Source of the DNA: Boseongicola sp.
GTDB lineage: Bacteria > Pseudomonadota > Alphaproteobacteria > Rhodobacterales > Rhodobacteraceae
Length of the DNA: 36,211 bases
Reading direction: 5' to 3'
NCBI GenBank assembly: GCA_013042105.1
Contig: JABDQU010000157.1
Location: forward strand, 1-36,211
The notes beneath the pieces were generated by a model. The model was given only the letters and a program-made list of their open reading frames with translations, did not search any database and was not told the DNA's origin. Shown piece by piece: positions 6,650 through 22,897 of this stretch. Position 1 is the stretch's first letter; every line of letters begins with the position of its first letter. The translations under genes were made by a program, and so were the position numbers.

Positions 6650-8446
6650 TCAGTAGTGTCCGCGCGATTGCATGAGCGCATCGGCGCGGCGCTGGGCGTT
6701 GGTCAGGGCCACTTCGACGCTTTTTGCGCCTTGCAGCATATCGTGAAGTTCGGTGCCGATGATCTCGATCAGATCGGTGATTTCGGGGACCGGGGGGCGG
6801 GGCCAGTATTGCAGGATGCCCGAGCGCGCCATGCCGTCCACGATCGAGATCACGGGTGAAATGCGGCGCACGTTCGGGTCCATGCTGACGCTGAAGCGCG
6901 GTGATACGAGGCTGCCGTTTTCGATGTAGAGCTTGATGCTTTCGGGCGAGGTCAGGGACCGCATGGCGTCCCAGACCGCGCCGACGCGTTCGGGGGCAAT
7001 GTTGGACGGGATCGCCAGCGCGTAGCCTCCGACGGGGGCCAGAGGCTTGCCGCCCGGACCATAGGGGTGGGGCAGGAAGTCGGTCACGCCGTAGGCGGGT
7101 GATGCGTCGTTCAGTTCAAACAGGGGGGCCAGAAGTGTCGCGCAGTAGGCCATGGCGACTTCGCCATCTGCGTAGGCGCGGGCGCGTTCGTACCACGACA
7201 TCGACAGGATCGAGACGGGGGAGTAGTCGAGCAGTTCGCGCAGGTATTCGGCTGTTGCGACGGCTTCGTCGGACAAAAACGCCGGGCGCAGATTTTCGCC
7301 TTCGGACCATTCGGCATCAAAGCCGGTGTCGGTTTTTTCGAGGTTGAGGAAGGGGCGGCCCATCGCCCCCATGACGAACATGAAGGTGTGACCAAGCGGT
7401 GTGCCGCGCGCGGCGTTCCAAGCGATACCCGAGCGGCCCTGCGCACGGCTGTGCAGTTTGCGCGCAGTTTCGAGCGTATCCGAGATCGTAAAGGGCACGC
7501 CAATTCCGGCGGCGTCGCAGAGGTCACGGCGGACGCAGAGCAATTCGGGTGTCGTCTGGACCGGCAGGCCGTATTGCGCGCCCCGGTGGCGGGCCGATGC
7601 CAGCGCGACACTGTGGAAGTCCCCGAGATCGACCTTGCCGTCGGACAAGAGGTCGTCGATGGGCATCAGGATTTTCTTTTCGGCCAGTTCGCCGAACCAG
7701 GGCAGGTCACAGGCGATAATGTCATAGCGTGACGACTTGCGGCTGGCGTTGGACAGAATTTCCTGGCGCAGCCGGTCAATGGACAAGGCGCGGCTGTCGA
7801 TGCCGGTGCCAAACAGCGCTTCGAACTGGCGTTTCAGCACGTTCATGGCAAGGAATGTCGGATCGGCGTGAACCAGAACGCGCAGGTTGTTTTGCAGGCT
7901 GAGCTTTGATTGCAGCGGGGTCGGCGGCGGGATCGTGCCGCTTTCGCCGTAAGACGAGCCGAAGAAATAGTCGCTGATGCCGCCTTGTCCTGCGCCTTCA
8001 AGTCCAAGGGTCGAGCCAATGGCCCCGCGCACGCGGCGCGCATATTCCTGCCATTCACCGATCAGTTTTTCTGTCGGGTGGAGCGAGAAGCTTTTTCCGG
8101 TTTGGGTCCGTGGGCGTCTGATGAGAAGGCCGCGTTCTTCGATGGAGTTGATCGCCCGGATTGCGGTGCCATACCCAAGGCCGCTGGCGTTGGCCAGAAA
8201 GCTGGTGGTGGTCATCTTGCCTTTGAGGTGATTGCGCAAGAGCGTGGTGATCAACCGGGTTTCGTCATAACCGGATCGGAGGCTGAGCACCTGATCGGCC
8301 TCGTTGCCGAGGGCTTCGATGAAATCCAGGAAACGCGAAAATTCCTCGCCGGAAATGCTTTTGGGCAGCGGCGTTGGCCCGCTTTCGAAGGGATCTTTCG
8401 GTCGTGCTCGGTTGCGTCCCTTTTGCAGGTTCATGCGGTCTTTCAT
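6650..8446 (-). CDS. Putative one-component regulator: winged-helix domain fused to a MalE-type (SBP_bac_1) solute-binding domain
   Basis: About 598 residues with no signal peptide and no membrane segment. After a basic, disordered N-terminus, roughly residues 30-135 form a MarR-like winged helix (TTTSFLANASGLGYGTAIR as recognition helices, EERGLLIRRP as the wing). From about residue 190 to 560 the sequence follows the family-1 extracellular solute-binding fold (NLRVLVHADPTF, YDIIACDLPWF, YGLPVQTTPELLCVRRDL, APVGGYALAIPSN). Automated pipelines may call it an extracellular solute-binding protein, but without an export signal it should be a cytoplasmic sensor-regulator. It is the last gene on the strand of the adjacent CUT2 transporter operon, behind a terminator. 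The ORF track starts at TTG 8458; I prefer ATG 8446, though 8434 is also possible. Ligand unknown. Confidence 0.8.
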   Translation of the reverse strand: MKDRMNLQKGRNRARPKDPFESGPTPLPKSISGEEFSRFLDFIEALGNEADQVLSLRSGYDETRLITTLLRNHLKGKMTTTSFLANASGLGYGTAIRAINSIEERGLLIRRPRTQTGKSFSLHPTEKLIGEWQEYARRVRGAIGSTLGLEGAGQGGISDYFFGSSYGESGTIPPPTPLQSKLSLQNNLRVLVHADPTFLAMNVLKRQFEALFGTGIDSRALSIDRLRQEILSNASRKSSRYDIIACDLPWFGELAEKKILMPIDDLLSDGKVDLGDFHSVALASARHRGAQYGLPVQTTPELLCVRRDLCDAAGIGVPFTISDTLETARKLHSRAQGRSGIAWNAARGTPLGHTFMFVMGAMGRPFLNLEKTDTGFDAEWSEGENLRPAFLSDEAVATAEYLRELLDYSPVSILSMSWYERARAYADGEVAMAYCATLLAPLFELNDASPAYGVTDFLPHPYGPGGKPLAPVGGYALAIPSNIAPERVGAVWDAMRSLTSPESIKLYIENGSLVSPRFSVSMDPNVRRISPVISIVDGMARSGILQYWPRPPVPEITDLIEIIGTELHDMLQGAKSVEVALTNAQRRADALMQSRGHY

Positions 8447-8540: not shown

Positions 8541-9581
8541 CTATCCCGATGGCCTTCGTAAACCCGCGATCTTGTCGGACAAGATACTTCGTCGTCGGTC
8601 GACATCGTCAAGCAACTGGCCGCGCCTTTGTCGTTCCTCGAAGACGCGGCTGCCGGTCTGGAACATGATGACGACCAAAAGCAGGATGCCAAGATAGAGC
8701 TGAACCATGAAGGAGGGCGTCACGTTGAACACCAGTCCGGTATTGAGGAAGTTGACGGTCAGGGTGCCGATGGCAGCGCCAACGACGCCGCCTTTGCCGC
8801 CAAGAATCGAGACCCCGCCGATGAAGGCGGCCACGGTCCCGGCCAGCAAAAGGTATTGCAGACCAAGGGCCTGTGCGGTGCCGGAGCGAAGTCCGATGAT
8901 GACGCCGCCAAGCCCGGCACAGAACCCGGAAATTGCGAAAACGATGATCATCGGGCGTTGCAGGGAAATGCCTGAAGCGAGGGCTTCTTTGCGCGCGCCG
9001 CCAATTGCGTAAATCTCGCGGCCGTAGCGTGTGAAGGCCATGAACAGGCCAACCACCACGAACATGATGATGACCAGCAGCGAGGCGGGCGAGAAGTAGC
9101 CAAGCATCTTGGTCGAGATGAAATCGGGAATGCGGAAGTCTGTCAGCATCACGGTTTTTTCTTCGGCGGCAAACAGCGCCACACCGCGCAAGAGCATCAG
9201 GGTGCCAACCGTCAGGACGATGGCTCGGATGCGTAGGTAGGCGATGAAGTAGCCCTGAATTGCCCCGATTGAGGTCGAGATCGCGAGCGCGAACAACAGG
9301 GAATTGATCGCGCCCCAGTCATCGGTGAAGCGCACGGTGACGACGGCGGCGAGGGCCGCGTTCGATCCGATGGAGAGGTCGATTTCGCCTGCAATGATGC
9401 ACAGCGTCAGCGCCAGACCGACCAGTCCCAGAACCGCAAAGCGTTCCATGATCGCAAAGCCCGTGCGATGCGTGAAAAAGAGCGGCTCGGTGATGGCGAA
9501 AAACGTGTAGACGCTGACCGAGAGCAGGATCGCAAAGCTGAGGTCGGGGTTTTCTGTCACCCAGTTTTTTAGTCGTTCCAT
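8541..9581 (-). CDS. Sugar-type ABC transporter permease (CUT2/RbsC family)
   Basis: A 346-residue membrane protein with about eight to ten hydrophobic segments. The CUT2/RbsC hallmark region is present (IIAGEIDLSIGSNAALAAV), followed by GAIQGYFIAYLRIRAIVLTVGTL and, near the C-terminus, LLAGTVAAFIGGVSILGGKGGV, which contacts the ATPase. It would pair with the next permease and the double ATPase to import a small polar compound of sugar or polyol type. It is the fourth gene of the leftward transport operon, 9 nt after the preceding permease gene, and is followed by a terminator. The C-terminal tail after the last membrane segment is basic (EERQRRGQLLDDVDRRRS). Confidence 0.93.
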   Translation of the reverse strand: MERLKNWVTENPDLSFAILLSVSVYTFFAITEPLFFTHRTGFAIMERFAVLGLVGLALTLCIIAGEIDLSIGSNAALAAVVTVRFTDDWGAINSLLFALAISTSIGAIQGYFIAYLRIRAIVLTVGTLMLLRGVALFAAEEKTVMLTDFRIPDFISTKMLGYFSPASLLVIIMFVVVGLFMAFTRYGREIYAIGGARKEALASGISLQRPMIIVFAISGFCAGLGGVIIGLRSGTAQALGLQYLLLAGTVAAFIGGVSILGGKGGVVGAAIGTLTVNFLNTGLVFNVTPSFMVQLYLGILLLVVIMFQTGSRVFEERQRRGQLLDDVDRRRSILSDKIAGLRRPSG

Positions 9582-9590
9582 GATAGGCTC

Positions 9591-10664
9591 CTATTCCACA
9601 GCACGGCTGCCGCGGCGGACAAGCGCAAAGACGATGATGGAAAACACGATCATCAGGCCAACCGCGAGGACGCGCGCGCCCGAGTTGAAGCCGTTCAGGA
9701 CCATCATGTTGTCGATACTAGAGATGAAGATCGCGCCAAGTGATGTGCGCAGGGTCGAGCCGTAACCTCCCATGATGGAATTGCCGCCGACCATGACAAT
9801 GGCGATAACCATGATCGTCATGTCACCGGACGAGCCGAATTCGGAGGAGAAGTAGTTGACGTGCGCCGACGAGACCTGACCCGAAAAGGCCACCGCAACG
9901 AAGGCGGCGCAGACGCTGGCGATGATGCAGCATTTGATCGCCATGCCGAAGTTCTCGTGCCCCGTGGCGCGACCTGCGGCGCGATTGGCACCAACCAGAT
10001 AAACCTGACGTCCGAAGGTCGTGTATCTGAGTACCAGTTCGGCCACGACCGCGATGATCACGAAAGCCACGGTGATGTTCGGGATGTCGCCAATGAACGA
10101 GCCGGTCCCGAGCCATTCGGCGCCGTGGGGGCGGCGATAGCTGATCACAAGGTTGTCTGACCACCACGACCCGATGCCGAAGAACAGGCCCGCCGCGCCG
10201 AGTGTGACAACGATGGGGTTTCCGCCAAGGCCGATGAGAGCGCCTTGCAGGGCCCCGGCGATGGTGGCGATGATCATGGTCGCGACGAAGGCGACAAGGA
10301 AGGTCATGAACAAGGACCATGTTGTCGGATCGGCGTCGACCGGACCCCATTGGTTCCAGTCCGCGCTCATCAGAGTGGCGAAGCAAATGATTGAAAGGGC
10401 GGCGATTTCCTTCATCGACAGAAGGAAGAAGTTCCCGCTGAGGGTCACGAATGTCAGGCCGATGGCCATGATGCCGACGAGGGCGGCGTCGCGGATGATA
10501 GTCTTGACGTTGAACCATGTCAGGAAGTCGTCCGTGAAGGCTGCGCCGGCAACAAAGACCAGCAGGAACAGCCCGACCATCCCGATGACCAGCGGGGAGT
10601 AGTCCCGCCGGATACGTTGCACGAGGTTCGGCGTGTTGCCTGTGGATGCGGATACATCGGTCAT
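9591..10664 (-). CDS. Sugar-type ABC transporter permease (CUT2/RbsC family)
   Basis: A 357-residue polytopic protein homologous to its neighbour. The LTFVTLSGNFFLLSMKEIAA segment is the counterpart of the usual GxIDLSVG motif, but the Asp-Leu-Ser pattern is altered. GALQGALIGLGGNPIVVTLG and VMVGGNSIMGGYGSTLRTSLGA follow. Two unlike permeases imply a heterodimeric channel, as in some CUT2 systems. Its start codon overlaps the stop of the ATPase gene (ATGA, 4 nt), indicating translational coupling. The signature is weaker than in the other permease, which fits specialisation within the dimer. Confidence 0.93.
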   Translation of the reverse strand: MTDVSASTGNTPNLVQRIRRDYSPLVIGMVGLFLLVFVAGAAFTDDFLTWFNVKTIIRDAALVGIMAIGLTFVTLSGNFFLLSMKEIAALSIICFATLMSADWNQWGPVDADPTTWSLFMTFLVAFVATMIIATIAGALQGALIGLGGNPIVVTLGAAGLFFGIGSWWSDNLVISYRRPHGAEWLGTGSFIGDIPNITVAFVIIAVVAELVLRYTTFGRQVYLVGANRAAGRATGHENFGMAIKCCIIASVCAAFVAVAFSGQVSSAHVNYFSSEFGSSGDMTIMVIAIVMVGGNSIMGGYGSTLRTSLGAIFISSIDNMMVLNGFNSGARVLAVGLMIVFSIIVFALVRRGSRAVE

Positions 10665-12190
10665 GAGGCTTTCTCCGAAACTGCAATGCCCGCTTCATGG
10701 AAGGGGTCGGTGATCTGTTCGAGGATGTTGGCCGAGGTCATGTCATCCAGTTGGAGTTCTCCGATCTGCACGCCGCGGTAAAAGCTAACGATGCGGTCGG
10801 GCAGGTTGGTGATTTCCTGGATATCGGTTGAGGCCACGACAATCGCGGCACCGTTGTCAGCGAGATCACGCAGGATTTGATAGATTTCGGCCCGCGCGCC
10901 GACGTCCACGCCGCGGGTCGGCTCGTTGACGAGGATCACGTCGGGCGAGATCGACAGCCATTTTCCAAGCGCGACTTTTTGCTGATTGCCACCGGACAGG
11001 ACGCCTGCTTCTTGCGGCAGGCGTTTGGGGTCGATGGTGAACTTCACAGCGTTTTCGGTTGTTGTCTGGAGTTCTCGCGGGCCGCTGAGGATGCCTTTGG
11101 TCGCAATCGTTTCAAGGGACGGCGATGACATGTTTTCCATGATCGGACGCCCGAGGAACAATCCGTCGTGTTTGCGGTCTTCCGAGCAATAGGCGATTCC
11201 GCGGCTGATTGCGTCCTTGGGGCGGGTGGGCAGGAAGGTCTCGCCTTTGTAATGCAGCATGCCTCCGCGTGTTTTGGTCGAGCCGGCCATGGCGCCCAGA
11301 ATTTCAGATGTGCCGGAGCCGAGTTGCCCGGCAAGACCGAGGATTTCACCGGGGTAGACGTCAAAGCTGATCGGCTCGACGATGCCGTCCGGCCACAGAT
11401 CGCGGACCTTGAGGACTGGTTCGGCGCGGGCGACGGGTTTGCGCGCGGGATACATATCGCCAAGCTCGAAGCCGAGCATGAGTTCGACCAGACTGTTGAC
11501 GTCCATGTCCGCAGCAGGGCGGGCGGGTTGGCTTTCGCCATCGCGCAACACGGTGATCCGGTCGCAGATCTTGAAGATTTCATCCATGCGGTGACTGACG
11601 TAGATAATGGATTTTCCGCGATCTTTCAGGCGTTTGACCATATCGAGGATGCGGATGGAGTCGGTTTCGCCAAGCGCGGCGGTGGGTTCATCCAGAATGA
11701 GGACCTGCGGGTTGTGGGCGATCAGTCTGGCGACTTCGACCAGATGTTGTTCGCCGACCGACAGTCGGTTCGTGGCGCGCAAGGGGTTGACGTGGCCAAG
11801 CCCGACTTCTTCCAGAAAGGGTTTGGCCATCTCGGAGAGGCGGCTTTTCGAGGCGAACAGCGGCACGCCGTCTCCTGCGAGAAAGATGTTTTCGGCGACG
11901 GTCATGGTCGGGATGAGGCTGAGTTCCTGCTGGGCAATCGCGATGCCGACCTGTTCAGCCGCAGTAGGCGTTTTGAAGTGCCGCGCTTCGCCGTCGTAGA
12001 AGTATTCTCCGCGAAAGCCGGGGTCGAAACCGCCGATGATCTTGACCATCGTGGATTTTCCGGCGCCGTTTTCGCCGACCAATCCCATGACCTCGCCGCG
12101 ACCGATTTCGAAACTTGCGCCCTTCAGCGCCTGGATCGCACCGTAATGACGGCTGATGTTTGTGAGCTTTAGCAGCGGTTGATCCGCCAT
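10661..12190 (-). CDS. Sugar-type ABC transporter ATP-binding protein with two nucleotide-binding domains (RbsA/MglA-like)
   Basis: A 509-residue cytoplasmic ATPase with two tandem ABC domains, the normal architecture of CUT2 transporters. Domain 1 has a complete Walker A (GENGAGKST near residue 39), an LSVGEQHLVEVARL signature and Walker B LILDEPTAALGE. Domain 2 has the degenerate Walker A seen throughout this family (GQLGSGTSE), the signature LSGGNQQKVALGKWL and VILVNEPTRGVDVGARAEIY. It therefore probably hydrolyses ATP mainly at one site. It follows the binding-protein gene, from which it is separated by an 87-bp gap with a hairpin, and overlaps the next permease gene by 4 nt. Confidence 0.95.
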   Translation of the reverse strand: MADQPLLKLTNISRHYGAIQALKGASFEIGRGEVMGLVGENGAGKSTMVKIIGGFDPGFRGEYFYDGEARHFKTPTAAEQVGIAIAQQELSLIPTMTVAENIFLAGDGVPLFASKSRLSEMAKPFLEEVGLGHVNPLRATNRLSVGEQHLVEVARLIAHNPQVLILDEPTAALGETDSIRILDMVKRLKDRGKSIIYVSHRMDEIFKICDRITVLRDGESQPARPAADMDVNSLVELMLGFELGDMYPARKPVARAEPVLKVRDLWPDGIVEPISFDVYPGEILGLAGQLGSGTSEILGAMAGSTKTRGGMLHYKGETFLPTRPKDAISRGIAYCSEDRKHDGLFLGRPIMENMSSPSLETIATKGILSGPRELQTTTENAVKFTIDPKRLPQEAGVLSGGNQQKVALGKWLSISPDVILVNEPTRGVDVGARAEIYQILRDLADNGAAIVVASTDIQEITNLPDRIVSFYRGVQIGELQLDDMTSANILEQITDPFHEAGIAVSEKAS

Positions 12191-12233
12191 GCTCCCCTCC
12201 CTGATCCATTATGGATATTCTTATAAGTAGCAT

Positions 12234-12277: not shown

Positions 12278-13312
12278 TTAGCCGCCCCAGGCGCCCGAGC
12301 AAAGCTCGTCGATGCCATAAAGCTTGCCGTCAAAGCCGCGCAGGGCAACGGTTTCCATGTTGGTCGCCGTGACCGCAGGGTTTGGCGTGAAGTTGATGTA
12401 GTTCTCCAACTCGCCTGTCTCGAGGTATTCCTCGACCATCTTGATGGCCAGCTGGCCCTCGTGCAGGGGTGACTGCAACGTGGTGCCGAACTGCTTGCCT
12501 TCTTCGATCAACTGCTTGTCGCCGTTGCAGACAGTGCCGACTGCGATGACGTCTTCGCCCATGACGTAGCCAGCTTCCTCAAGCGCGCGAATGCCGCCTG
12601 TCAGGATCGCATCGTCCATGCCGTAGACAAAGTGAATGCCTTCATCGCGCAGCGACGCAATCGCTTTTGCAGCACCGCTATAGCCGTTTGCCTGACCAAA
12701 GCCTTCGTCAACGTCGCCGATGATGGTCAGATCAGAGCCTGCGATGGCTTCCTGAAACGCGTTGATGGAAAGGCCATATCCGCCATAGCTGTGAGGGTAG
12801 GACAGCACGAGAACATTGAAGCCTTCGCCGCCAGCCGCTTTTTTCGCCGCCGCAGCTTCGCGCATCATGTAACCGGCATTACGGGCGCGAAGACGATCGT
12901 CAGGTCCCGCGTAACCGAAGATATACTGCCGGTCCTGATCGTTTGGCAGCTGGTTGATCTTGAGAACCGGGACACCGGTTCTGGACAGAGCGCGCAGCGA
13001 ACCCAGTCCCGCAACGGCATCGGATGGCCACCAGATGAACACGTCCGGCAGGACGCCTGCGGCCAGAACCTGCTGAACCTGCTGGTCCTGCTCGGCCTGG
13101 TTGAACTGATTTTCGAACACCTGGATATCAAAGCCCTTTAGCTCGGCTGTGTCTTTGATGCCCTTGATGAACCGCCCGATGTAGGCTTCGCCTGCCGGGC
13201 CGTTGAATGATACGATTGATGGTCTGTCTTGCGCGAACGACGCGGTCGCCACGGCCGTAATGGCCAAAGCTCCGGCCAATATGCTGCGCAGGGTTTTTCC
13301 CAGATACGACAT
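12278..13312 (-). CDS. Periplasmic substrate-binding protein of the CUT2-type ABC transporter
   Basis: A 344-residue protein with a clear signal peptide (LRSILAGALAITAVATASFAQ, cleavage near residue 28). The mature part has the type-I periplasmic-binding fold of the ribose-binding/Peripla_BP_4 kind: an IVSFNGPAGEAYIGRFIKGIKD opening, LPDVFIWWPSDA, VPVLKINQLP, and a hinge region with YGMDDAILTGGIRALEEAG. Two Cys residues in the C-terminal part (GTVCNGD and ELCSGAWGG) could form a disulfide. It should deliver the substrate to the two permeases. It is first in the leftward operon, reading away from the SDR gene. The fold differs from the MalE-like domain in the regulator, so that domain was not copied from this gene. 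Confidence 0.93.
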   Translation of the reverse strand: MSYLGKTLRSILAGALAITAVATASFAQDRPSIVSFNGPAGEAYIGRFIKGIKDTAELKGFDIQVFENQFNQAEQDQQVQQVLAAGVLPDVFIWWPSDAVAGLGSLRALSRTGVPVLKINQLPNDQDRQYIFGYAGPDDRLRARNAGYMMREAAAAKKAAGGEGFNVLVLSYPHSYGGYGLSINAFQEAIAGSDLTIIGDVDEGFGQANGYSGAAKAIASLRDEGIHFVYGMDDAILTGGIRALEEAGYVMGEDVIAVGTVCNGDKQLIEEGKQFGTTLQSPLHEGQLAIKMVEEYLETGELENYINFTPNPAVTATNMETVALRGFDGKLYGIDELCSGAWGG

Positions 13313-13508
13313 AGATTCCTCCCTAAAAGTTTTAGACGATGTGTGTTCGTCTGCACCACCGTCTCAAATAATGGCACTCGCTTGGTCTTTGATTTCGTCC
13401 ACTTTGGACAAATTTCATCCAAACCGGACCAAAAGCCGCTGTGGTTCGTTTTGCTGGTGCGTCAGCGTGGGGGGAGCAAAAATTGACTGCGCTCTGGGAG
13501 GAAGCACC
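13313..13508. promoter_or_regulatory. Divergent control region of the catabolic locus
   Basis: This 196-bp gap separates the leftward transport operon from the rightward enzyme operon and must carry both promoters. It contains two tandem 20-bp operator-like repeats (13391-13430) and an inverted repeat AGACGA-N7-TCGTCT (13334-13352) just upstream of the binding-protein start. A GGGAGGA site precedes the SDR start. I do not assign exact promoter elements. Confidence 0.6.
13391..13430. repeat. Tandem 20-bp operator-like repeats
   Basis: GATTTCGTCCACTTTGGACA is followed directly by AATTTCATCCAAACCGGACC. They match at 13 of 20 positions (ATTTC.TCCA....GGAC). The first contains a perfect dyad GTCCA-CTT-TGGAC and the second the weaker TCC-N5-GGA. 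A 20-bp period is about two helical turns, so two dimers would sit on the same face of the DNA. Confidence 0.55.
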
Positions 13509-14318
13509 ATGGACCAACAACGGCTTGCCGGAAAGAACATCATGATCACCGGCGCGGCACAAGGAATGGGTGCCGCAAACGCAAAATATTTCGCCGCTCA
13601 GGGCGCGAATGTATGCATCGGGGACCTCAACCTTGACGGGGTCGAGAGCGTTGCCGAGGAGATTAACGCGGAAGGCGTCGGGAAGGCCGTAGCGGTCAAG
13701 ATGGACGTGACCAACCGCGCAGACAATGCCGCTGCGGTGGCCGCAACCGTAGATGCGTTCGGATCGATCAACGTCGCGCTTTTGAACGCAGGCGTGAACA
13801 AGCCGCGCATGTTCATGGATATCGACGAAGACAACTGGGACATGATCATGAACATCAACGCCAAGGGTGTTTTGCTTGGCATGCAGGAGGCCGCGCGGGC
13901 GATGATTGCGCAGGGCCCGATGGAAAATCATCCCTACAAGATCATTCCGGTCGGTTCGATTGTCTCGCGGACCGCGTTTCTTGATGTGATCCCCTACAGC
14001 TGTTCAAAATATGCTGTGCTGGGAATGATCATTGGCGGCGCGAAGGCGCTTTGGGAGCACAAGATCACAGTCAATGGTTATGGCCCGGGTGTGGTGAACA
14101 CCGAGCTTTGGAAGCAGCTTGATAAAGACCTGGTCGATATCGGGATGTTCGAAGAAGAGGGCCAGTCGCTGGAGACTTTGCGCGAGAACATGATCCTGAT
14201 GAAGAAGCTGTCGACGGCTGATGACGTGAAGGGAACGGCTGCGTTCCTGTGTTCGGACGAGAGCGATTACATGACCGGCCAACTGATCATGATCGATGGC
14301 GGCATCATCATGCAATGA
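13509..14318 (+). CDS. SDR-family NAD(P)-dependent oxidoreductase
   Basis: A 269-residue classical short-chain dehydrogenase. Visible motifs are the cofactor loop TGAAQGMG (residues 16-23), IGDLN with an Asp after beta-2 that favours NAD(H), NAGV, the catalytic Ser in VGSIVS, and YSCSK (YxxxK). The C-terminal FLCSDESDYMTGQLIMIDGG is typical. Such enzymes oxidise secondary alcohols of polyols, sugars or hydroxy acids to ketones; the substrate is not readable. The ORF track begins at 13203 inside the control region, but ATG 13509 with GGGAGGA six bases upstream is clearly the start. First gene of the rightward enzyme operon, so probably the first oxidation step after import. Confidence 0.92.
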   Translation: MDQQRLAGKNIMITGAAQGMGAANAKYFAAQGANVCIGDLNLDGVESVAEEINAEGVGKAVAVKMDVTNRADNAAAVAATVDAFGSINVALLNAGVNKPRMFMDIDEDNWDMIMNINAKGVLLGMQEAARAMIAQGPMENHPYKIIPVGSIVSRTAFLDVIPYSCSKYAVLGMIIGGAKALWEHKITVNGYGPGVVNTELWKQLDKDLVDIGMFEEEGQSLETLRENMILMKKLSTADDVKGTAAFLCSDESDYMTGQLIMIDGGIIMQ

Positions 14319-14450: not shown

Positions 14451-15746
14451 ATGGGTGCCTTGACGCCAAATGTTCTGACCCCGCAAGACCTTGAGCCAAA
14501 CTGGCGCTGGGAAAACAAGCTACCGGCATGGGGACATACCTCGGTCGATTTTGAGCGGCGTGTGGATCATGACCGCTTGCGCCGGTATCGGTTGAGCCGC
14601 ACGCGCGAGGCGATGAAAAATTCCCCCGCAGGAACTCTTTTGCTGTTTGACGTGAACAATATCCGATACGTTTCGGCCACCAAGATCGGTGAGTGGGAGC
14701 GGGATAAGATGTGCCGCTTCTGTCTGTTGACGGGCGATGACAGTCCCTACGTCTGGGATTTCGGATCCGCTGCGGTGCATCATCAGAAGTATTCGGACTG
14801 GCTGGAGCCGGATCACTGCCTTGCTGGTGTCGTCGGCATGCGCGGGACGATCCCGCCCGAGTTCGGACTTATGAAGAAGTATGCCAAGCAGATCGCGGGT
14901 CTGATCCGGGATGCCGGGATGGGTGATATGCCGGTCGGCGTGGATTACGCCGAGACCGCGATGTTCCATGCATTGCAGGAAGAGGGCATCAACGTCATCG
15001 ACGGGCAGCAGATTATGCTGGCGGCGCGCGAGATCAAGAACTGGGACGAGATCCAGCTTCTGACGCAGGCGGCCAGTATGGTCGATGGTGTCTATCACAT
15101 GATCTATGAAGAGCTGAAACCGGGCGTGCGCGAGAACGATATCGTCGCGATGTCCAACAAGATGCTTTACGAAATGGGATCGGACGATGTGGAGGCAATC
15201 AACGCCATTTCGGGCGAGCGCTGCAATCCCCATCCGCATAATTTCACCGACCGGCTGATCCGCCCCGGTGATCAGGCGTTCTTTGATATCTTGCAGAGTT
15301 ATCAGGGATATAGAACCTGCTACTATCGAACGTTCAACGTGGGTCGTGCGACGCCGTCGCAGAACGATGCCTATGTGAAAGCGCGCGAATGGCTGGAAGC
15401 GTCGATCGAGATGATCAAGCCCGGCGTCACGACGGACAAGGTCGCGGAGGTCTGGCCAACGGCGGAAAGCCTAGGCTTCCCGAATGAGGATGCGGCCTTT
15501 GGATTGCAGTTCGGGCATGGGCTGGGATTGGCTTTGCATGAGCGCCCGATCATCAGTCGGGCCGTCAGCATGGATCATCCGATGGAGATTCAGACCGGTA
15601 TGGTCTTTGCATTGGAGACCTATTGCCCGGCAAGCGACGGGTATTCAGCTGCGCGGATCGAAGAAGAAGTGGTCGTAACGGACAAGGGCTGCGAAGTGAT
15701 CAGCCTGTTCCCTGCCGAAGAATTGCCAATCGCGAACCGTTACTAA
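14451..15746 (+). CDS. M24-family (Xaa-Pro peptidase/creatinase fold) protein with an altered metal site
   Basis: A 431-residue protein with an N-terminal creatinase-type domain (LLLFDVNNIRYVSATKIGEW) and a C-terminal pita-bread domain (HGLGLALHERP, ETYCPASDGYSAARIEEEV). In M24 metallopeptidases the ligands are Asp, Asp, His, Glu, Glu. Here the first Asp (D279), His (H356) and both Glu (E389, E404) are present, but the second Asp, expected 11 residues after the first in the D..Q.YQGYRT.YYRT motif, is Cys290. The family also includes the non-metal creatinase and the DMSP lyase DddP, so a peptidase role should not be assumed. It sits between the SDR and the TPP-dependent E1 genes, so it more likely acts on the imported compound. 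ATG 14451 follows an AAGGA site. Confidence 0.85.
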   Translation: MGALTPNVLTPQDLEPNWRWENKLPAWGHTSVDFERRVDHDRLRRYRLSRTREAMKNSPAGTLLLFDVNNIRYVSATKIGEWERDKMCRFCLLTGDDSPYVWDFGSAAVHHQKYSDWLEPDHCLAGVVGMRGTIPPEFGLMKKYAKQIAGLIRDAGMGDMPVGVDYAETAMFHALQEEGINVIDGQQIMLAAREIKNWDEIQLLTQAASMVDGVYHMIYEELKPGVRENDIVAMSNKMLYEMGSDDVEAINAISGERCNPHPHNFTDRLIRPGDQAFFDILQSYQGYRTCYYRTFNVGRATPSQNDAYVKAREWLEASIEMIKPGVTTDKVAEVWPTAESLGFPNEDAAFGLQFGHGLGLALHERPIISRAVSMDHPMEIQTGMVFALETYCPASDGYSAARIEEEVVVTDKGCEVISLFPAEELPIANRY

Positions 15747-15819
15747 TCGCAGCGGGAGAGGCCCATTTTGCGGAGATTTCGCAAGGTGGGCTGACCTTCG
15801 CTGCCTCGGGAGACCCCAG

Positions 15820-16803
15820 ATGGCTGACGCCAAGACCAATACCGAAGACTATTTGCAGATGTATCGCCAGATGGTGCGCATTCGCACCTTCGAAGACAAC
15901 GCCAACCAATTGTATCTCGATGCCAAGATGCCGGGGCTGACTCATATGTATTCCGGCGAGGAGGCCGTGGCGGTCGGAATTTGTGAGGCGTTGAAGGTGA
16001 CGGACAAGATCACCTCGACCCATCGCGGCCATGGTCATTGCGTGGCCAAGGGCGCGGCGTTCAAGGAAATGTTCTGTGAGCTTTTGGGCAAGGAAGAGGG
16101 TTATTGCCGGGGCAAAGGCGGGTCGATGCACATTGCGGACCAGTCCAACGGTAACCTTGGGGCGAATGCGATTGTGGGCGGCTCAATGGGGATCGCGACG
16201 GGGTCGGCATTGAGGGCGAAAATGCAGGGCTCGGATGATGTGACCGTGTGTTTCTTCGGGGACGGCGCGACGGCGCAGGGTCTGATGTATGAAGTCATGA
16301 ACATGGCCGCGCTTTGGAAGCTGCCGGTGATCTATGCCTGTGAAAACAATGGATATTCCGAGTATACGAAGACCGACGAGATTGCCGCCGGTGAAATCAC
16401 GGCCCGCGCCGAGGCCTTCGGGATCGAGGCGCACAAGGTCGACGGACAGGATGTCTTGGCGGTCAACGCGCTGACGACCGAGCTTGTCCAGCGGGCGCGC
16501 AACGGCGAGGGGCCGTTTTTCATCGAGTTGGACACCTATCGCTATCACGGGCACCACGTGGGTGACATCAATCGCACCTATTACCGGACCAAGGACGAAG
16601 AGGCCGAGTGGAAAGCCAAGCGCGATCCAATCAAGCTGTTCGGCGACTGGCTGACCGGTGAGGGAATCGCGAGCGAGGACGAATTAGCAGCACTTGGCGA
16701 AGAGGTCCGCTCGGAGGCGGCGGAGGCTGTGGCCTATGCGCTGGAGGCGCCCTATCCCGACGGTTCCGAAGTCGACATGCATGTATTTCTGGAGACGACC
16801 TGA
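15820..16803 (+). CDS. Thiamine-diphosphate-dependent dehydrogenase E1 alpha subunit (acetoin dehydrogenase/PDH type)
   Basis: A 327-residue E1 alpha subunit. The TPP/Mg motif begins GDGATAQG (147-154) and ends in ENNGYS about 28 residues later, the classical GDG-N26-30-NN pattern. GKGGSMHIAD and LGANAIVGG surround the substrate pocket. The loop RYHGHHVGD replaces the phosphorylation loop of pyruvate dehydrogenase (RYRGHSMSDP) and resembles acetoin dehydrogenase AcoA. With the beta subunit it should cleave or decarboxylate an alpha-hydroxyketone or 2-oxo acid and pass an acyl group to lipoate. Acetoin itself, another acyloin, or a 2-oxo acid are all possible substrates. It follows the M24 gene by 73 bp in the same operon. 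Confidence 0.94.
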   Translation: MADAKTNTEDYLQMYRQMVRIRTFEDNANQLYLDAKMPGLTHMYSGEEAVAVGICEALKVTDKITSTHRGHGHCVAKGAAFKEMFCELLGKEEGYCRGKGGSMHIADQSNGNLGANAIVGGSMGIATGSALRAKMQGSDDVTVCFFGDGATAQGLMYEVMNMAALWKLPVIYACENNGYSEYTKTDEIAAGEITARAEAFGIEAHKVDGQDVLAVNALTTELVQRARNGEGPFFIELDTYRYHGHHVGDINRTYYRTKDEEAEWKAKRDPIKLFGDWLTGEGIASEDELAALGEEVRSEAAEAVAYALEAPYPDGSEVDMHVFLETT

Positions 16804-17798
16804 TGCGCAGTATCACTCTTAGTCAGGCGGTCAATGAGGCCATTGCAGAAGAAATGCGGCGTGATGAGACAGTGTTTCTCATCGGGGAGGACGTGGCCGA
16901 AGCGGGAACGCCCTTTAAGGTAACCAGCGGGCTGGTCGAGGAATTCGGCACGGATCGCGTCATTGATACGCCGATTGCCGAGCCGGGGTTCATGGGGCTG
17001 GCTGTCGGGGCGGCGATGACCGGCGCGCGGCCGATTGTGGACCTCATGTTTGGGGATTTCCTTTTTCTGGTGATGGACCAGCTTTGTAATCAGGCTGCGA
17101 AGACACACTATATGTCCGGCGGAAAACTAAACGTGCCGCTTGTTTTGCGCACAAATCTTGGGGCGACGCGTCGTTCGGCGGCGCAGCACAGCCAGTCACT
17201 TCACGCCCTTGTGGCGCATATTCCGGGATTGAAGGTGGCTATGCCGTCGTCGGCTTATGAGGCCAAGGGGCTGATGAAGACCGCGATCCGCGATGACAAT
17301 CCGGTTGTGATCTTTGAAGACAAGCTCATGTATCAGGACAAGGCCGAGGTGCCGGAAGAGGAGTTTCTCATTCCCTTCGGTGAGGCCAAAGTGCTGCGTG
17401 AGGGCCGCGATGTGACGCTGATCGGCACGTCCTCGATGCGGCAGGTTTGCGAAGCGGCGGCGACGATGCTGGAGGCAGACGGCGTAAGCGCCGAGGTGAT
17501 TGATCCGCGCACGATTGCGCCGCTGGATGAGGCCACGATCCTTCAAAGCGTGAAGAAAACGACGCGTGCGATTGTGGTCGACGAGGGTCATCAGAATTTC
17601 GGCACAACAGCCGAGATTGCAGCCCGGATCAGTGAAAAGGCGTTTTATCATCTGGATGCGCCCGTGATCCGCATGGGGGCGATGGACGTGCCGATTCCGT
17701 TTAGTCCGGCGCTTGAAGATTTGACAGTGCCAACGCCAGAGCAGGTCGCTGAAAACGCCCGACGGATTGTGGCGGGGGAATTGATCCATGCCCTTTGA
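16803..17798 (+). CDS. Thiamine-diphosphate-dependent dehydrogenase E1 beta subunit
   Basis: A 331-residue partner of the E1 alpha subunit, forming an alpha2beta2 heterotetramer. It shows the transketolase pyrimidine-domain motif around IGEDVAEAGTPFKVT (the Glu contacts TPP), DTPIAEPGFMGLAVGAAMTG, AQHSQSLHALVAHIPGLKV, and the C-terminal domain with DVTLIGTSSMRQVC, VIDPRTIAPLD and VVDEGHQNFG. It starts 1 nt inside the E1 alpha stop (TGATG), so translation is coupled and subunits should be equimolar. Its end overlaps the start of the lipoyl-protein gene by 11 nt. Full length compared with other E1 beta subunits of this class. Confidence 0.94.
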   Translation: MRSITLSQAVNEAIAEEMRRDETVFLIGEDVAEAGTPFKVTSGLVEEFGTDRVIDTPIAEPGFMGLAVGAAMTGARPIVDLMFGDFLFLVMDQLCNQAAKTHYMSGGKLNVPLVLRTNLGATRRSAAQHSQSLHALVAHIPGLKVAMPSSAYEAKGLMKTAIRDDNPVVIFEDKLMYQDKAEVPEEEFLIPFGEAKVLREGRDVTLIGTSSMRQVCEAAATMLEADGVSAEVIDPRTIAPLDEATILQSVKKTTRAIVVDEGHQNFGTTAEIAARISEKAFYHLDAPVIRMGAMDVPIPFSPALEDLTVPTPEQVAENARRIVAGELIHAL

Positions 17799-18747
17799 AG
17801 TCAAGATGCCTCAGCTGGGCATGAACCAGGACAGCGCAGTCATCGTGGCATGGCTGAAGGCGGCGGGTGACAAGGTCACCCGTGGCGAGCCGATTTTCGA
17901 GGTCGAAACCGACAAGGCAACGATGGAGGTCGAAGCGGCGGGTGACGGTTATCTTGCGGGTATTCGCGTCGAGGAAGGGGCGGATATTCCGGTCGGAGAC
18001 GTCATTGCTTTGATCGTTGAGACCGAGGACGCGGTTGCGGAGCATGCGTGTGCGCCTGTGCCTGCATCGGTTGAGGCGACGGAGACTGCCGAGGTTGCAC
18101 CAAACCCTACGCCTGCGCCTGAGACGACGGCCAAGGCCGAGGAGACTGTTGCGCCCGCGCCTGTTGAGGTGCGCGCACCCGCGCCGCCTGCTCTGTCGGG
18201 GCCTATTCTTGCGTCGCCTTTGGCAAAGCGGTTGGCAAAAGAGCGGGGTGTCGATCTGGCGGCTTTGAGGGCCGGTGGTTTGCCCGAGCCGATCCATGCG
18301 GCCGATCTGTCACGGGCTGCAACCGGCGGACAGTCTCAACTCGGCGCGCGGATATCGGGTGACGCGTTGACCGCGCTTCTTCAACGATCGGAAAACGCGG
18401 ATCGCACGGTACTTTTTGCGGCCTTTGCCGCCGGTGCGTGGCGTGACGTGTTTGAGACTGACGACGCGACAATCGCCATTCGTGGCCTGGATGGCGCGAC
18501 GGTTCACTATCCTGCGCATGGCGAGGCTGAAGCTGGCGCGGCGATGTCGCTGGTCGATCTGTGCGACACGCGCCTTCAGGGCTATGCGCCAGCGAGCGGT
18601 GGGATCACGCTTTCGGTCGGGGCGGACACAGACCAGTTCGCACTGACGCTGTCCTTCAACGAGGCGTCTTTGCCGATGGCGCATGCCATCACGCTTCTCG
18701 ACGCAATCGCGGCACGGGTGGAAGACCCGATCCGCCAACTGATCTGA
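17788..18747 (+). CDS. Lipoyl-carrier protein: lipoyl domain, E1/E3-binding domain and a shortened E2-like domain lacking the catalytic His
   Basis: A 319-residue protein. Residues 1-78 are a lipoyl domain with the lipoylation motif VETDKATMEV (Lys43). An Ala/Pro/Glu-rich hinge (about 80-135) leads to a peripheral-subunit-binding domain (ASPLAKRLAKERGVDLAAL). The last 130 residues align with the C-terminal half of an E2 acyltransferase: LTLSFNEASLPMAHAITLLD corresponds, without gaps, to LDLSYDHRVINGADAARFLA in the separate E2 of this operon. The catalytic His is therefore Glu and the Asn is Pro, and the domain is about half the usual 230 residues. It should carry the swinging arm but not catalyse transfer. 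An GGGGGAA site precedes ATG 17788. Confidence 0.85.
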   Translation: MPFEVKMPQLGMNQDSAVIVAWLKAAGDKVTRGEPIFEVETDKATMEVEAAGDGYLAGIRVEEGADIPVGDVIALIVETEDAVAEHACAPVPASVEATETAEVAPNPTPAPETTAKAEETVAPAPVEVRAPAPPALSGPILASPLAKRLAKERGVDLAALRAGGLPEPIHAADLSRAATGGQSQLGARISGDALTALLQRSENADRTVLFAAFAAGAWRDVFETDDATIAIRGLDGATVHYPAHGEAEAGAAMSLVDLCDTRLQGYAPASGGITLSVGADTDQFALTLSFNEASLPMAHAITLLDAIAARVEDPIRQLI

Positions 18748-18754
18748 GAGAGAC

Positions 18755-20191
18755 ATGAAAAACCTTAAAAACCAACTCTATATCGGCGGCGAATGGCGTG
18801 ACGCTTCGGATGGTGGAGCGTTTGACGTTCTCAATCCGGCGGATGAAACGGTCCTTGCCAGTGTTGCATCCGGCACGGTCGATGATGCGATGGCCTGTCT
18901 GGATGCGGCTGAAGCTGCCTTTGGGGGCTGGGCTGCGAAAAGCCCACGCGAACGGGGTGAAATACTGCGCCGGGCGTTTGAGCTCTTCACCGACAAACTG
19001 GACGAGATTGCCCGGCTTATCACGTTGGAGAACGGCAAGGCCGGGTCTGATGCGATGGGCGAGGCCAAGTATGCGGCCGAGTTTTTCCGTTGGTATGCCG
19101 AGGAGGCTGTGCGCTCGGAAGGGTATCTGGGCATGGCGCCTGCGTCGGGTGCGCGGCTGATGGTGCATCAGAAACCGGCGGGGATCGCGGTGTTGGTGAC
19201 GCCGTGGAATTATCCGGCGGCGATGGGCACGCGCAAGATTGGCCCGGCTTTGGCGGCCGGGTGTCCGGTGGTTTTGAAGCCGGCGTCCGAGACGCCTTTG
19301 ACGATGCTTGCGCTGATGCCCATTCTGGAGGAGGCGGGCGTGCCGCCGGGGGTGGTCAACATTCTTCCGTCGCGGTCTTCGGGCGCGGTTGTGGGCGCGA
19401 TGCTGGCGGATGCGCGCGTGCGGGTGGTCAGCTTTACCGGCTCGACCGAGGTCGGGCGCAAGCTGTTGCATGCTGCGGCCGACAACGTGGTCAAACCGGC
19501 GATGGAGCTGGGTGGAAACGCGCCGTTCATTGTTTGCAAAGACGCCGATATCGAGGCGGCCGCGGATGGTTTGATGGTCGCGAAGATGCGCAATCTGGGC
19601 GAGGCCTGCACGGCAGCGAACCGGATTTATGTGCATGAAGAGGTAGAGGCCCCCTTCGTCGAGGCGTTCTGCGCAAAGATGGCGGCGCTGAAGATCGGGA
19701 ACGGTCTTGAAGAAGGCGTCGATGTGGGCGCGCTGGTAAATGCCGAAACCCGCGACAAGGTGGATTTTTTCGTGCGTGATGCGGTCGACAAGGGCGCCAC
19801 GCTTCGCCTTGGCGGGACGCGTCCGAATGGGCCGGGGTATTTCTATCCGCCTACGGTTTTGACTGCTGTGCCGGACGATGCCGCCTGTCTGCGTGACGAG
19901 ATTTTCGGGCCGGTTGCGGCGTTGCAGACCTTCCGCGACGAAGACGAGGTTATCGCGCGGGCCAATGACACGGAATACGGTCTGGTCGCTTACCTTTATA
20001 CCGCCGACATGGCGCGTGGCATGGCACTTTCGGAACGGCTTGAGTTTGGCATGGTTGGATTGAACCGGGGTCTTGTGTCCGATCCGGCGGCGCCATTTGG
20101 TGGTGTGAAGCAATCCGGTCTGGGCCGTGAAGGTGGCAAGGAGGGGCTGCTGGAGTTTCAGGAAACCCAATACATTTCGACCGCGTGGTAG
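18755..20191 (+). CDS. NAD(P)-dependent aldehyde dehydrogenase (succinate-semialdehyde dehydrogenase-like)
   Basis: A 478-residue ALDH-superfamily enzyme. The oxyanion Asn is in TPWNYP (N152), the general-base Glu in MELGGNAPF (E251), and the nucleophilic Cys in GEACTAANRIYV (C285); FTGSTEVGRKL is the cofactor loop. The sequence GEACTAANR and the tail PFGGVKQSGLGREGGKEG are typical of the succinate-semialdehyde/GabD group, although that group also oxidises glutarate semialdehyde, glycolaldehyde and others. Inserted between the two E2-related genes, it probably oxidises the aldehyde released in the same pathway. Only 7 bp separate it from the lipoyl-protein gene. There is no gabT or other GABA gene nearby, so a role in GABA breakdown is not supported. 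Confidence 0.92.
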   Translation: MKNLKNQLYIGGEWRDASDGGAFDVLNPADETVLASVASGTVDDAMACLDAAEAAFGGWAAKSPRERGEILRRAFELFTDKLDEIARLITLENGKAGSDAMGEAKYAAEFFRWYAEEAVRSEGYLGMAPASGARLMVHQKPAGIAVLVTPWNYPAAMGTRKIGPALAAGCPVVLKPASETPLTMLALMPILEEAGVPPGVVNILPSRSSGAVVGAMLADARVRVVSFTGSTEVGRKLLHAAADNVVKPAMELGGNAPFIVCKDADIEAAADGLMVAKMRNLGEACTAANRIYVHEEVEAPFVEAFCAKMAALKIGNGLEEGVDVGALVNAETRDKVDFFVRDAVDKGATLRLGGTRPNGPGYFYPPTVLTAVPDDAACLRDEIFGPVAALQTFRDEDEVIARANDTEYGLVAYLYTADMARGMALSERLEFGMVGLNRGLVSDPAAPFGGVKQSGLGREGGKEGLLEFQETQYISTAW

Positions 20192-21072: not shown

Positions 21073-21315
21073 AGCTGGCGGTTCAGGGGCGCCTGCCAAG
21101 CTGCTTAAAGGAGCATCTTGGCGGTTGGTATGCCCGGACGTTTGGATTTTTAATTTCAATGGATGCATGGGCCGGCGGGTGCCTGCAATTGATATGCCTC
21201 AAGGCGGCACGCGGCTTTTCAGACCAGACAGGACTATGACGTGTGCCTGACGCTTCTGACTACTGGAGCGATTCTTGCGGTGCGCGTTCTTGCTCAGTCT
21301 TTGGGGGGAAAGTCT

Positions 21316-22890
21316 GTGAGAGTTAAAGAATATCTTAAAATTGAGAGCGCCACTGACCTTAGTCGTTCCGAAGTCGGGCGACTGGGAACCGCAGTCTTAT
21401 TTGTCGTCGCGGTCATCATCTACACTGGTTCGACATTTGCGCATGTCGACCAGCTTTTCCTGTTGATCGCGGCAGCCGTCATCGGCGCATACATGGCGAT
21501 GAATATCGGCGCCAACGATGTCGCCAACAATGTCGGCCCGGCTGTTGGCTCGTATGCGTTGACGCTGACGGGGGCGATTGTGATCGCTGCCATTTTCGAA
21601 GCGGCAGGCGCCATCATCGCGGGCGGGGACGTGGTCTCTACGGTGAAGAAGGGCATCATTGATCCGGCGGACGTTGCGGATCCGAATGTGTTTATCTGGG
21701 TGATGATGGGGGCGCTGATTGGTGCGGCCTTGTGGCTGAACGCCGCGACGTGGCTGGGGGCACCGGTTTCGACGACGCATTCGATTGTCGGCGGTGTGAT
21801 GGGGGCCGGTATTGCGGCGGCAGGCTGGGACATTGTGAACTGGGCGGCGATGGCCAAGATCGCCGCGAGTTGGGTCATTTCGCCTTTGACGGGCGGAATT
21901 ATTGCGGCGACGTTTCTGTTCGTTCTGAAGAAGACGATATTCTTCAAGCCCGACCCGGTGGAATGTGCGCGCAAGGTCGTGCCCTTCATGATTGGCATTA
22001 TGACATGGGCCTTCACGACGTATATTGCGCTTAAGGGGATCAAGAAGCTTGTCGAGATCGATTTTCTCGTCGCGTTGCTTCTTGGGCTGGTTGCGGGTCT
22101 GGCGATCATCGTGATTGTCCGCCCCGCGATTAACAGGGCGGCCCCAACGCTTGAAAACAGTCGGGCAGGGGTGAACAAGCTGTTCACGGTTCCGCTGATC
22201 ATTTCTGCGGCCTTGTTGAGTTTTGCGCACGGGGCGAACGATGTGGCCAACGCTGTCGGCCCATTGGCAGGAGTTGTCGATGCGCTGACCCATGCCGAGG
22301 GAGGCAGTTCGAAGGTGGCGATCCCCTTGTGGGTGATGGTGATCGGGGCTTTGGGGATATCGGTGGGACTTGCGTTGTTCGGCCCCAAGCTGATCAGGAC
22401 CGTGGGGTCCGAGATCACCGAGCTTGATCGTAGCCGAGCCTTCTGCATTGCGCTGGCCGCGGCTATCACGGTGATCATTGCAAGCCAGTTGGGCATGCCG
22501 ATCAGTTCGACACATGTGGCGCTGGGCGCCGTGTTCGGTGTGGGCTTTCTACGTGAGTTTCTGGAAACCCGGCTGGGCAAGGTGATCGAAGATGTCCTTG
22601 GTCAGCATCAGGGCGATCCGGATTTCGCGCTGACCGAGCAGGTTTTGTTCACCTTTCAGAATGCGCCACCCGAGGACAAGCAGCGCATTCTGGACGAGTT
22701 GAAGAAGATGGGGTCTGAGGCGGTGATCAGCGCGGCGCAACGCAGAGAACTGCAAAAGGCGTTGAAGCGACAGTTGGTGCATCGCTCTTCGCTGTTCAAA
22801 ATCGTGTCGGCGTGGATCATTACGGTGCCTGTTTCGGGGGTTCTGGCGGCGCTGTTCTACTTCGTTCTGCGCGGGATGCTGTTGCCGTAG
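21316..22890 (+). CDS. Inorganic phosphate transporter, PiT family
   Basis: A 524-residue membrane protein with the duplicated PiT signature: GANDVANNVGP near residue 65 and GANDVANAVGP in the second half, each within a repeat of hydrophobic segments, plus paired GAPVSTTHSI and GMPISSTHVA loops. PiT proteins move metal-phosphate or phosphate with H+ or Na+. There is an extra hydrophilic segment before the last membrane helix (LGQHQGDPDFALTEQVLF to about VHRSSLFK), longer than in short bacterial PiT proteins. The ORF track starts at 21241, but GTG 21316 has a GGGGGGAAAG site and gives a cleaner N-terminus. Seven bases separate it from the second phosphate-transport gene. Confidence 0.92.
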   Translation: MRVKEYLKIESATDLSRSEVGRLGTAVLFVVAVIIYTGSTFAHVDQLFLLIAAAVIGAYMAMNIGANDVANNVGPAVGSYALTLTGAIVIAAIFEAAGAIIAGGDVVSTVKKGIIDPADVADPNVFIWVMMGALIGAALWLNAATWLGAPVSTTHSIVGGVMGAGIAAAGWDIVNWAAMAKIAASWVISPLTGGIIAATFLFVLKKTIFFKPDPVECARKVVPFMIGIMTWAFTTYIALKGIKKLVEIDFLVALLLGLVAGLAIIVIVRPAINRAAPTLENSRAGVNKLFTVPLIISAALLSFAHGANDVANAVGPLAGVVDALTHAEGGSSKVAIPLWVMVIGALGISVGLALFGPKLIRTVGSEITELDRSRAFCIALAAAITVIIASQLGMPISSTHVALGAVFGVGFLREFLETRLGKVIEDVLGQHQGDPDFALTEQVLFTFQNAPPEDKQRILDELKKMGSEAVISAAQRRELQKALKRQLVHRSSLFKIVSAWIITVPVSGVLAALFYFVLRGMLLP

Positions 22891-22897
22891 GCGCGTT

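Follow-up and report, generated by a model that had tools for sequence, protein, structure and literature searches.

A predicted family of one-component regulators joining a MarR-like winged helix to a MalE-class sensor domain

Solute-binding protein folds are known to act as cytoplasmic sensors in LacI (a type I fold), LysR (a short type II fold) and Btr (an AraC head with a FhuD-like, class III domain), and the heads of these regulators differ. Engineered biosensors make wide use of MalE, one of the best-studied ligand-binding folds. Full-size binding-protein sensors have been described in SgrR and DsvR, cytoplasmic one-component regulators of carbohydrate-linked genes that combine an HTH head with an SBP_bac_5 domain (PMC13060122), and TrmB, from the archaeal sugar regulators, has the 11-bp operator TACT-N3-AGTA (PMC4158304).

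The protein considered here is encoded in a 36,211-nucleotide stretch of Boseongicola DNA, hereafter the window. It resembles SgrR and DsvR in that a full-size type II solute-binding domain follows an N-terminal HTH head, but its sensor is of the SBP_bac_1 family, whereas that of SgrR is of the peptide-binding SBP_bac_5 type. Pfam found no SBP_bac_5 in the window protein or its family members, and SgrR_N (PF12793) gave no match in the window protein and matched one of 20 members, at E 0.16 only. With TrmB, whose mode of action is much like the one proposed here, it shares a winged helix and sugar-sensing domain beside an ABC transporter, and also the 4-3-4 operator layout, but the TrmB effector domain (PF11495) was not found by Pfam in the window protein or members. 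Pfam and fold search likewise gave neither a LacI head nor a type I sensor fold. The predicted structure of the head (helices, HTH, wing, long helix) is that of the MarR family; MarR proteins, however, are about 140 aa long without a separate sensor, whereas the regulator carries one of 420 residues. The sensor shares its fold and sequence family with MalE-class transporter binding proteins (5iai, 4rya, 1eu8), but these are exported and feed a transporter, in contrast to the regulator, which has a DNA-binding head and no signal peptide.

In the literature searched, no characterised member or fusion of the MarR-like head and MalE-class type was found, an outcome that carries little weight by itself, and the combination with its operator appears undescribed to that extent. 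The first-pass annotation knew of no characterised regulator with a full MalE-like domain. For the fusion itself this stands in the literature searched, but the SgrR/DsvR precedent for a full-size sensor had been missed, and the concept is thus not unprecedented (PMC13060122).

Overall, the computed domain content, absence of an export signal, family-wide linkage and conserved operator point, with a probability of roughly 0.83, to a cytoplasmic one-component transcription regulator that would bind TCCA-N3-TGGA, sense a small ligand and switch on the adjacent uptake and catabolic operons.

Domain make-up of the predicted regulator

The regulator gene and its parts are as follows.

6650 to 8434, minus strand: regulator gene, 594 aa, MarR-like winged helix plus MalE-type domain (ORF check, Pfam, relatives' starts)
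8000 to 8371, minus strand: predicted winged-helix DNA-binding domain, residues 22–145 (AF2, Foldseek, conservation)
7919 to 7999, minus strand: linker, residues 146–172 (AF2 confidence, low at 145–165)
6653 to 7918, minus strand: MalE-class (SBP_bac_1) sensor domain, residues 173–594 (Pfam, Foldseek)

The reading frame from 8434 to 6650 on the minus strand was confirmed and is conserved in relatives. The gene had earlier been ended at 8446, but the second codon of this version is a stop in Boseongicola aestuarii (94% identical), and several close relatives have MNLQ as their N-terminus; the start was therefore moved to ATG 8434, which is probably the true one (TTG 8458 being a further alternative). 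Modelled whole by AlphaFold2 with 50 homologues, the protein has two confident domains (mean pLDDT 87.5, pTM 0.82).

Residues 22–147 folded alone (AF2) reach a pLDDT of 89.8, in the predicted order of three helices, a recognition helix (residues 88–100), a two-strand wing (104–120) and a long helix. The 50 best PDB matches of the head in Foldseek, MexR, MepR and HpaR among them, are all of the MarR type except 2kko, a generic winged helix; E-values are around 1e-4 to 1e-3, and TM values reach 0.72. At the level of sequence profiles, the first ~190 residues of a 598-aa version of the regulator have no curated Pfam or NCBIfam match. Of 20 members, 9 have a sub-threshold MarR_2 match, at best E 3.6e-4, and HTH_IclR, also below threshold, reaches E 2.2e-7; neither MarR nor MarR_2 exceeds the Pfam gathering score, and the window protein has no MarR_2 match at E 1. 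SlyA and TubR appear among the PDB sequence matches, and the sequence profiles thus agree weakly with the fold. Since the N-terminal HMM scores lie below curated cut-offs, the assignment rests mainly on predicted structure, by which the modelled head is confirmed as a MarR-like winged helix. Its best-conserved part is the recognition helix and wing (ASG.SYGTA.R ... RPRTxTGKSFSLHP); conservation over residues 76–121 is 0.72, against a mean majority identity of 0.70 for the sensor domain, and T90, A91, R93 and R107 are invariant in 50 of 50 members.

In the sensor, Pfam recognises SBP_bac_1 (E 1.9e-22, residues 222–503 in 598-aa numbering), and in the window protein and members together only SBP_bac_1 and SBP_bac_8. 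The two-domain make-up proposed in the first-pass annotation is thereby borne out, by structure prediction and fold search for the winged-helix head, whose MarR type emerged from the same check, and by Pfam for the sensor. The leading Foldseek match of the sensor is 5iai (TM 0.90, normalised by target), followed by 1eu8, MalE3 and 4rya. The PDB listing labels 4rya as sorbitol-binding, 5iai is a ribitol complex, and the locus contains an SDR gene whose product is acetoin reductase/L-iditol dehydrogenase-like; together these tentatively suggest a ligand of polyol- or cyclitol-like type, with a chance of perhaps one in three. A hydroxyquinol/inositol search for the pathway returned nothing relevant.

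It could also be that the MalE-like part no longer binds a small molecule and serves instead in dimerisation or in contacting a partner protein such as the transporter ATPase, much as MalT is held by MalK. The cytoplasmic position of the sensor would suit such a role, as would the frequent placement of the regulator as the last gene of a transporter operon. However, the whole MalE fold is kept and strongly conserved throughout its length (the 0.70 above); moreover, transporters of several different kinds are linked to this one sensor, which speaks against a fixed partner. This explanation is accordingly considered unlikely, and ligand sensing is preferred.

Predicted operator and its gene contexts

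The operator probably recognised by the regulator is the predicted palindrome TATCCAAATTGGATA (TCCA-N3-TGGA), assigned to it by co-occurrence. The sites in the window, and the genes around them, are listed below.

13396 to 13410, strand not assigned: predicted operator copy 1, CGTCCACTTTGGACA (phylogenetic footprint over 30 divergent regions; PWM score 16.5)
13416 to 13430, strand not assigned: predicted operator copy 2, CATCCAAACCGGACC, 20 bp from copy 1 (footprint, PWM)
12203 to 12217, strand not assigned: predicted third operator, GATCCATTATGGATA (the window's best PWM match, 18.9)
12278 to 13312, minus strand: the transporter's own periplasmic binding protein (Peripla_BP_4, by Pfam), in the probable target operon
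10661 to 12190, minus strand: sugar ABC transporter ATPase (AraG/RbsA-like)
9591 to 10664, minus strand: ABC permease (BPD_transp_2)
8541 to 9581, minus strand: ABC permease (BPD_transp_2)
13509 to 14318, plus strand: SDR dehydrogenase (acetoin reductase/L-iditol dehydrogenase-like), first gene of the divergent operon
14451 to 15746, plus strand: M24 peptidase-fold enzyme
15820 to 16803, plus strand: TPP-dependent dehydrogenase E1 alpha
16803 to 17798, plus strand: TPP-dependent dehydrogenase E1 beta
17788 to 18747, plus strand: lipoyl-domain E2-like protein
18755 to 20191, plus strand: aldehyde dehydrogenase (SSADH-like)

In the window's group, the operon runs binding protein, ATPase, permease, permease and, as the last gene, the regulator, with SDR, M24, E1 alpha, E1 beta, E2 and ALDH on the divergent side. 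Across 30 divergent regions of this group, a pair of TATCCAAATTGGATA palindromes 20 bp apart is the main conserved block besides the ribosome-binding sites, central in an otherwise variable region. In the window, the distance to the start codon is 83 bp on the binding-protein side and 78 bp on the SDR side. The 20-bp spacing scores 13.9 out of 16, against 9.8–11.3 for all other spacings from 12 to 40. The divergent region at 13313–13508, named earlier as the regulator's target, thus proves to hold a deeply conserved tandem palindrome, binding itself being a prediction. A sigma-70 promoter scan of the region gave no match.

A PWM was built from 56 sites of one gene context, two of them from the window. 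Over the 36-kb window, its top three matches, the only ones above 12 bits, are the three predicted operators, all in gaps of the transporter locus. The third, which took no part in building the PWM, lies inside the operon, some 13 bp ahead of the start codon of the ATPase gene, and is kept in B. aestuarii (L045:5231). When the window's genome was searched with a restricted pattern, 13 matches were obtained over both strands, two of which are the 12204 site; this pattern misses the 13396 site.

The partners of the regulator change across the family. The regulator gene of Phaeobacter, Marinovum and Tritonibacter diverges from a different ABC operon, only 25–37% similar, and has the same enzyme genes as in the window's group downstream of it. 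Partners differ again in Agrobacterium/Devosia/Rhizobium, in Halomonas and in remote members from Rhizobium, Sinorhizobium and Aminobacter, and include intradiol dioxygenase and maleylacetate reductase; family-wide, the linkage is to sugar-type ABC transporters and dehydrogenases. In ten annotated loci with other partners, outside PWM building and with regulators 25–59% identical to the window protein, the best PWM match over ~19.7 kb is intergenic in nine, a statistic inflated by the descent that these loci share. With kinship among loci uncorrected, 2000 permuted palindromic PWMs gave a mean of 1.96 intergenic matches in ten, and nine of them reached nine; the mean top score was 16.5 against 10.3 for permuted PWMs, three of 2000 reaching 16.5.

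The site stands directly after the regulator and before the next operon in Agrobacterium/Devosia-type loci (7 of 10), and in L041 (regulator 25% identical) the best match is in the divergent promoter adjoining the regulator gene. Upstream of their SDR gene, Halomonas loci have a related block, TGACCAGATTGGAT; an alignment of 25 loci shows it conserved except in Marinobacterium. The PWM gave no convincing site in two of the remotest loci, L040 and L042; the best match in L040, one of the nine intergenic ones, was discounted for its low score and distance from the regulator. Motif matches in the 3' part of regulator genes (~10440, L056–L058 and others) were excluded as coding sequence.

As the operator is assigned solely from co-occurrence, the palindrome might be bound by a different regulator, with the window protein controlling something else. 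This is improbable, since the motif accompanies the regulator gene where transporter and enzyme genes differ, and no gene other than the regulator is shared by all compared neighbourhoods. Assignment of the palindrome to the regulator is therefore retained.

Cellular location, origin and spread

Over 50 members, the peak hydrophobicity of any 15-residue stretch within the N-terminal 60 residues has a mean of 0.52 and a maximum of 1.04; the window's own periplasmic binding protein reaches 1.93, and an exported family-1 protein 1.62. None of the 50 members checked has an export signal or hydrophobic leader, and none was seen in any two-domain homologue that was read, as the first-pass annotation had expected. 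The database name 'extracellular solute-binding protein', borne almost throughout by annotated plasmid copies, would fit an ordinary exported protein with a miscalled or unusual N-terminus, but a conserved, in-frame winged helix of ~125 residues with a MarR fold in all two-domain members, the lack of a hydrophobic segment and the different appearance of true exported relatives in practice refute this.

That annotation further placed the transporter's own binding protein in another fold class, which holds (Peripla_BP_4), and had the sensor recruited from elsewhere, which is probable. The nearest headless relative of the sensor, and its nearest living relative outside the regulators, is an exported MalE-class protein with a signal peptide (L125, 6743–8092, minus strand), 41% identical to the sensor domain and encoded with MalF/MalG-type permeases and ATPases in a MalFGK-type operon. 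Its operon lies near FAD-oxidoreductase, GcvT-like and GMC-oxidoreductase genes. A search with this protein gave 64 matches in 298 Rhodobacteraceae genomes, of which, one short frame (G134) aside, it is itself the only stand-alone exported one. In a sensor-domain tree it is sister to all 28 regulators with modest support (80/72), a position that, together with its export, is consistent with one fusion event in which an exported ancestor took part. The sensor would then probably derive from a MalE-class transporter protein. The headless relatives that were read at 28% identity or less are exported proteins; L041 and L042, remote regulators at 25% identity, have the head.

The regulator is carried by 52 of 298 Rhodobacteraceae genomes at E <= 1e-40, and is far rarer elsewhere in the class (searched with the sensor domain, 9 of 385 genomes at E <= 1e-35). 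A genome-collection scan gave 445 related stretches, of which 80 were kept and only part of the 445 checked for the head, from Rhodobacterales, Rhizobiales, Rhodospirillales, Halomonas and others; the family probably comprises several hundred loci. It seems likely, taking these lines together, that an undescribed one-component regulator family, hundreds of loci labelled 'extracellular solute-binding protein', stems from a single fusion of a MarR-like head with a MalE-class transporter protein whose export signal was lost, and has kept its TCCA-N3-TGGA operator across alpha- and gammaproteobacteria as transporters and pathways were exchanged.

Three AT-rich, streamlined 1.4-Mb genomes (G630, G326, G553; loci L135, L136, L137) keep a two-domain regulator, 33–35% identical, which is unusual at such a size. 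In another locus (L050, 7846–9546, minus strand) a second regulator paralogue, 38% identical, lies ~4 kb away from the first copy and has ABC genes of its own.

Proposed mechanism and neighbouring genes

The MarR-like winged helix, presumably dimeric, would bind the TCCA-N3-TGGA palindromes. The C-terminal MalE-class domain would close around a small ligand, for which the likeliest candidate is a polyol- or cyclitol-like compound that the adjacent pathway takes as its substrate or forms early on. Closure would alter DNA binding, such that both divergent operons, for uptake (13312 down to 6650) and catabolism (13509 onward), would be on when the compound is present. The earlier proposal of a cytoplasmic sensor of the imported compound or a product is supported by the fold and the lack of an export signal; dimerisation, actual DNA binding, the ligand and the sign of regulation we infer. 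Derepression is slightly favoured over activation. The two tandem copies lie about two helical turns apart, which suggests that a pair of dimers sits on the same face of the DNA, and the third site, by the ATPase start codon, could, as a guess, separate control of the transporter genes from that of the binding protein.

If this is true, a natural regulator of MalE-class domain and DNA-binding head would show clam-shell motion wired to transcription by evolution. Further, hundreds of misannotated genes become predicted regulators whose operator is stated, so that the sugar or polyol pathways under their control, mostly uncharacterised, become open to testing.

The M24, E1 alpha, E1 beta, E2-like and ALDH genes at 14451–20191 perhaps encode an acetoin-dehydrogenase-like cleavage route; Pfam found no acyltransferase domain in the E2-like protein (17788–18747). 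Elsewhere in the window, a 516-aa protein (26793–28343, minus strand) beside a BCCT transporter has an N-terminal OmpR/ToxR-type DNA-binding domain (Trans_reg_C) and no other assigned domain, and two types of phosphate transporter, PHO4 and Na/Pi cotransporter, adjoin at 21241–24739 (plus strand).
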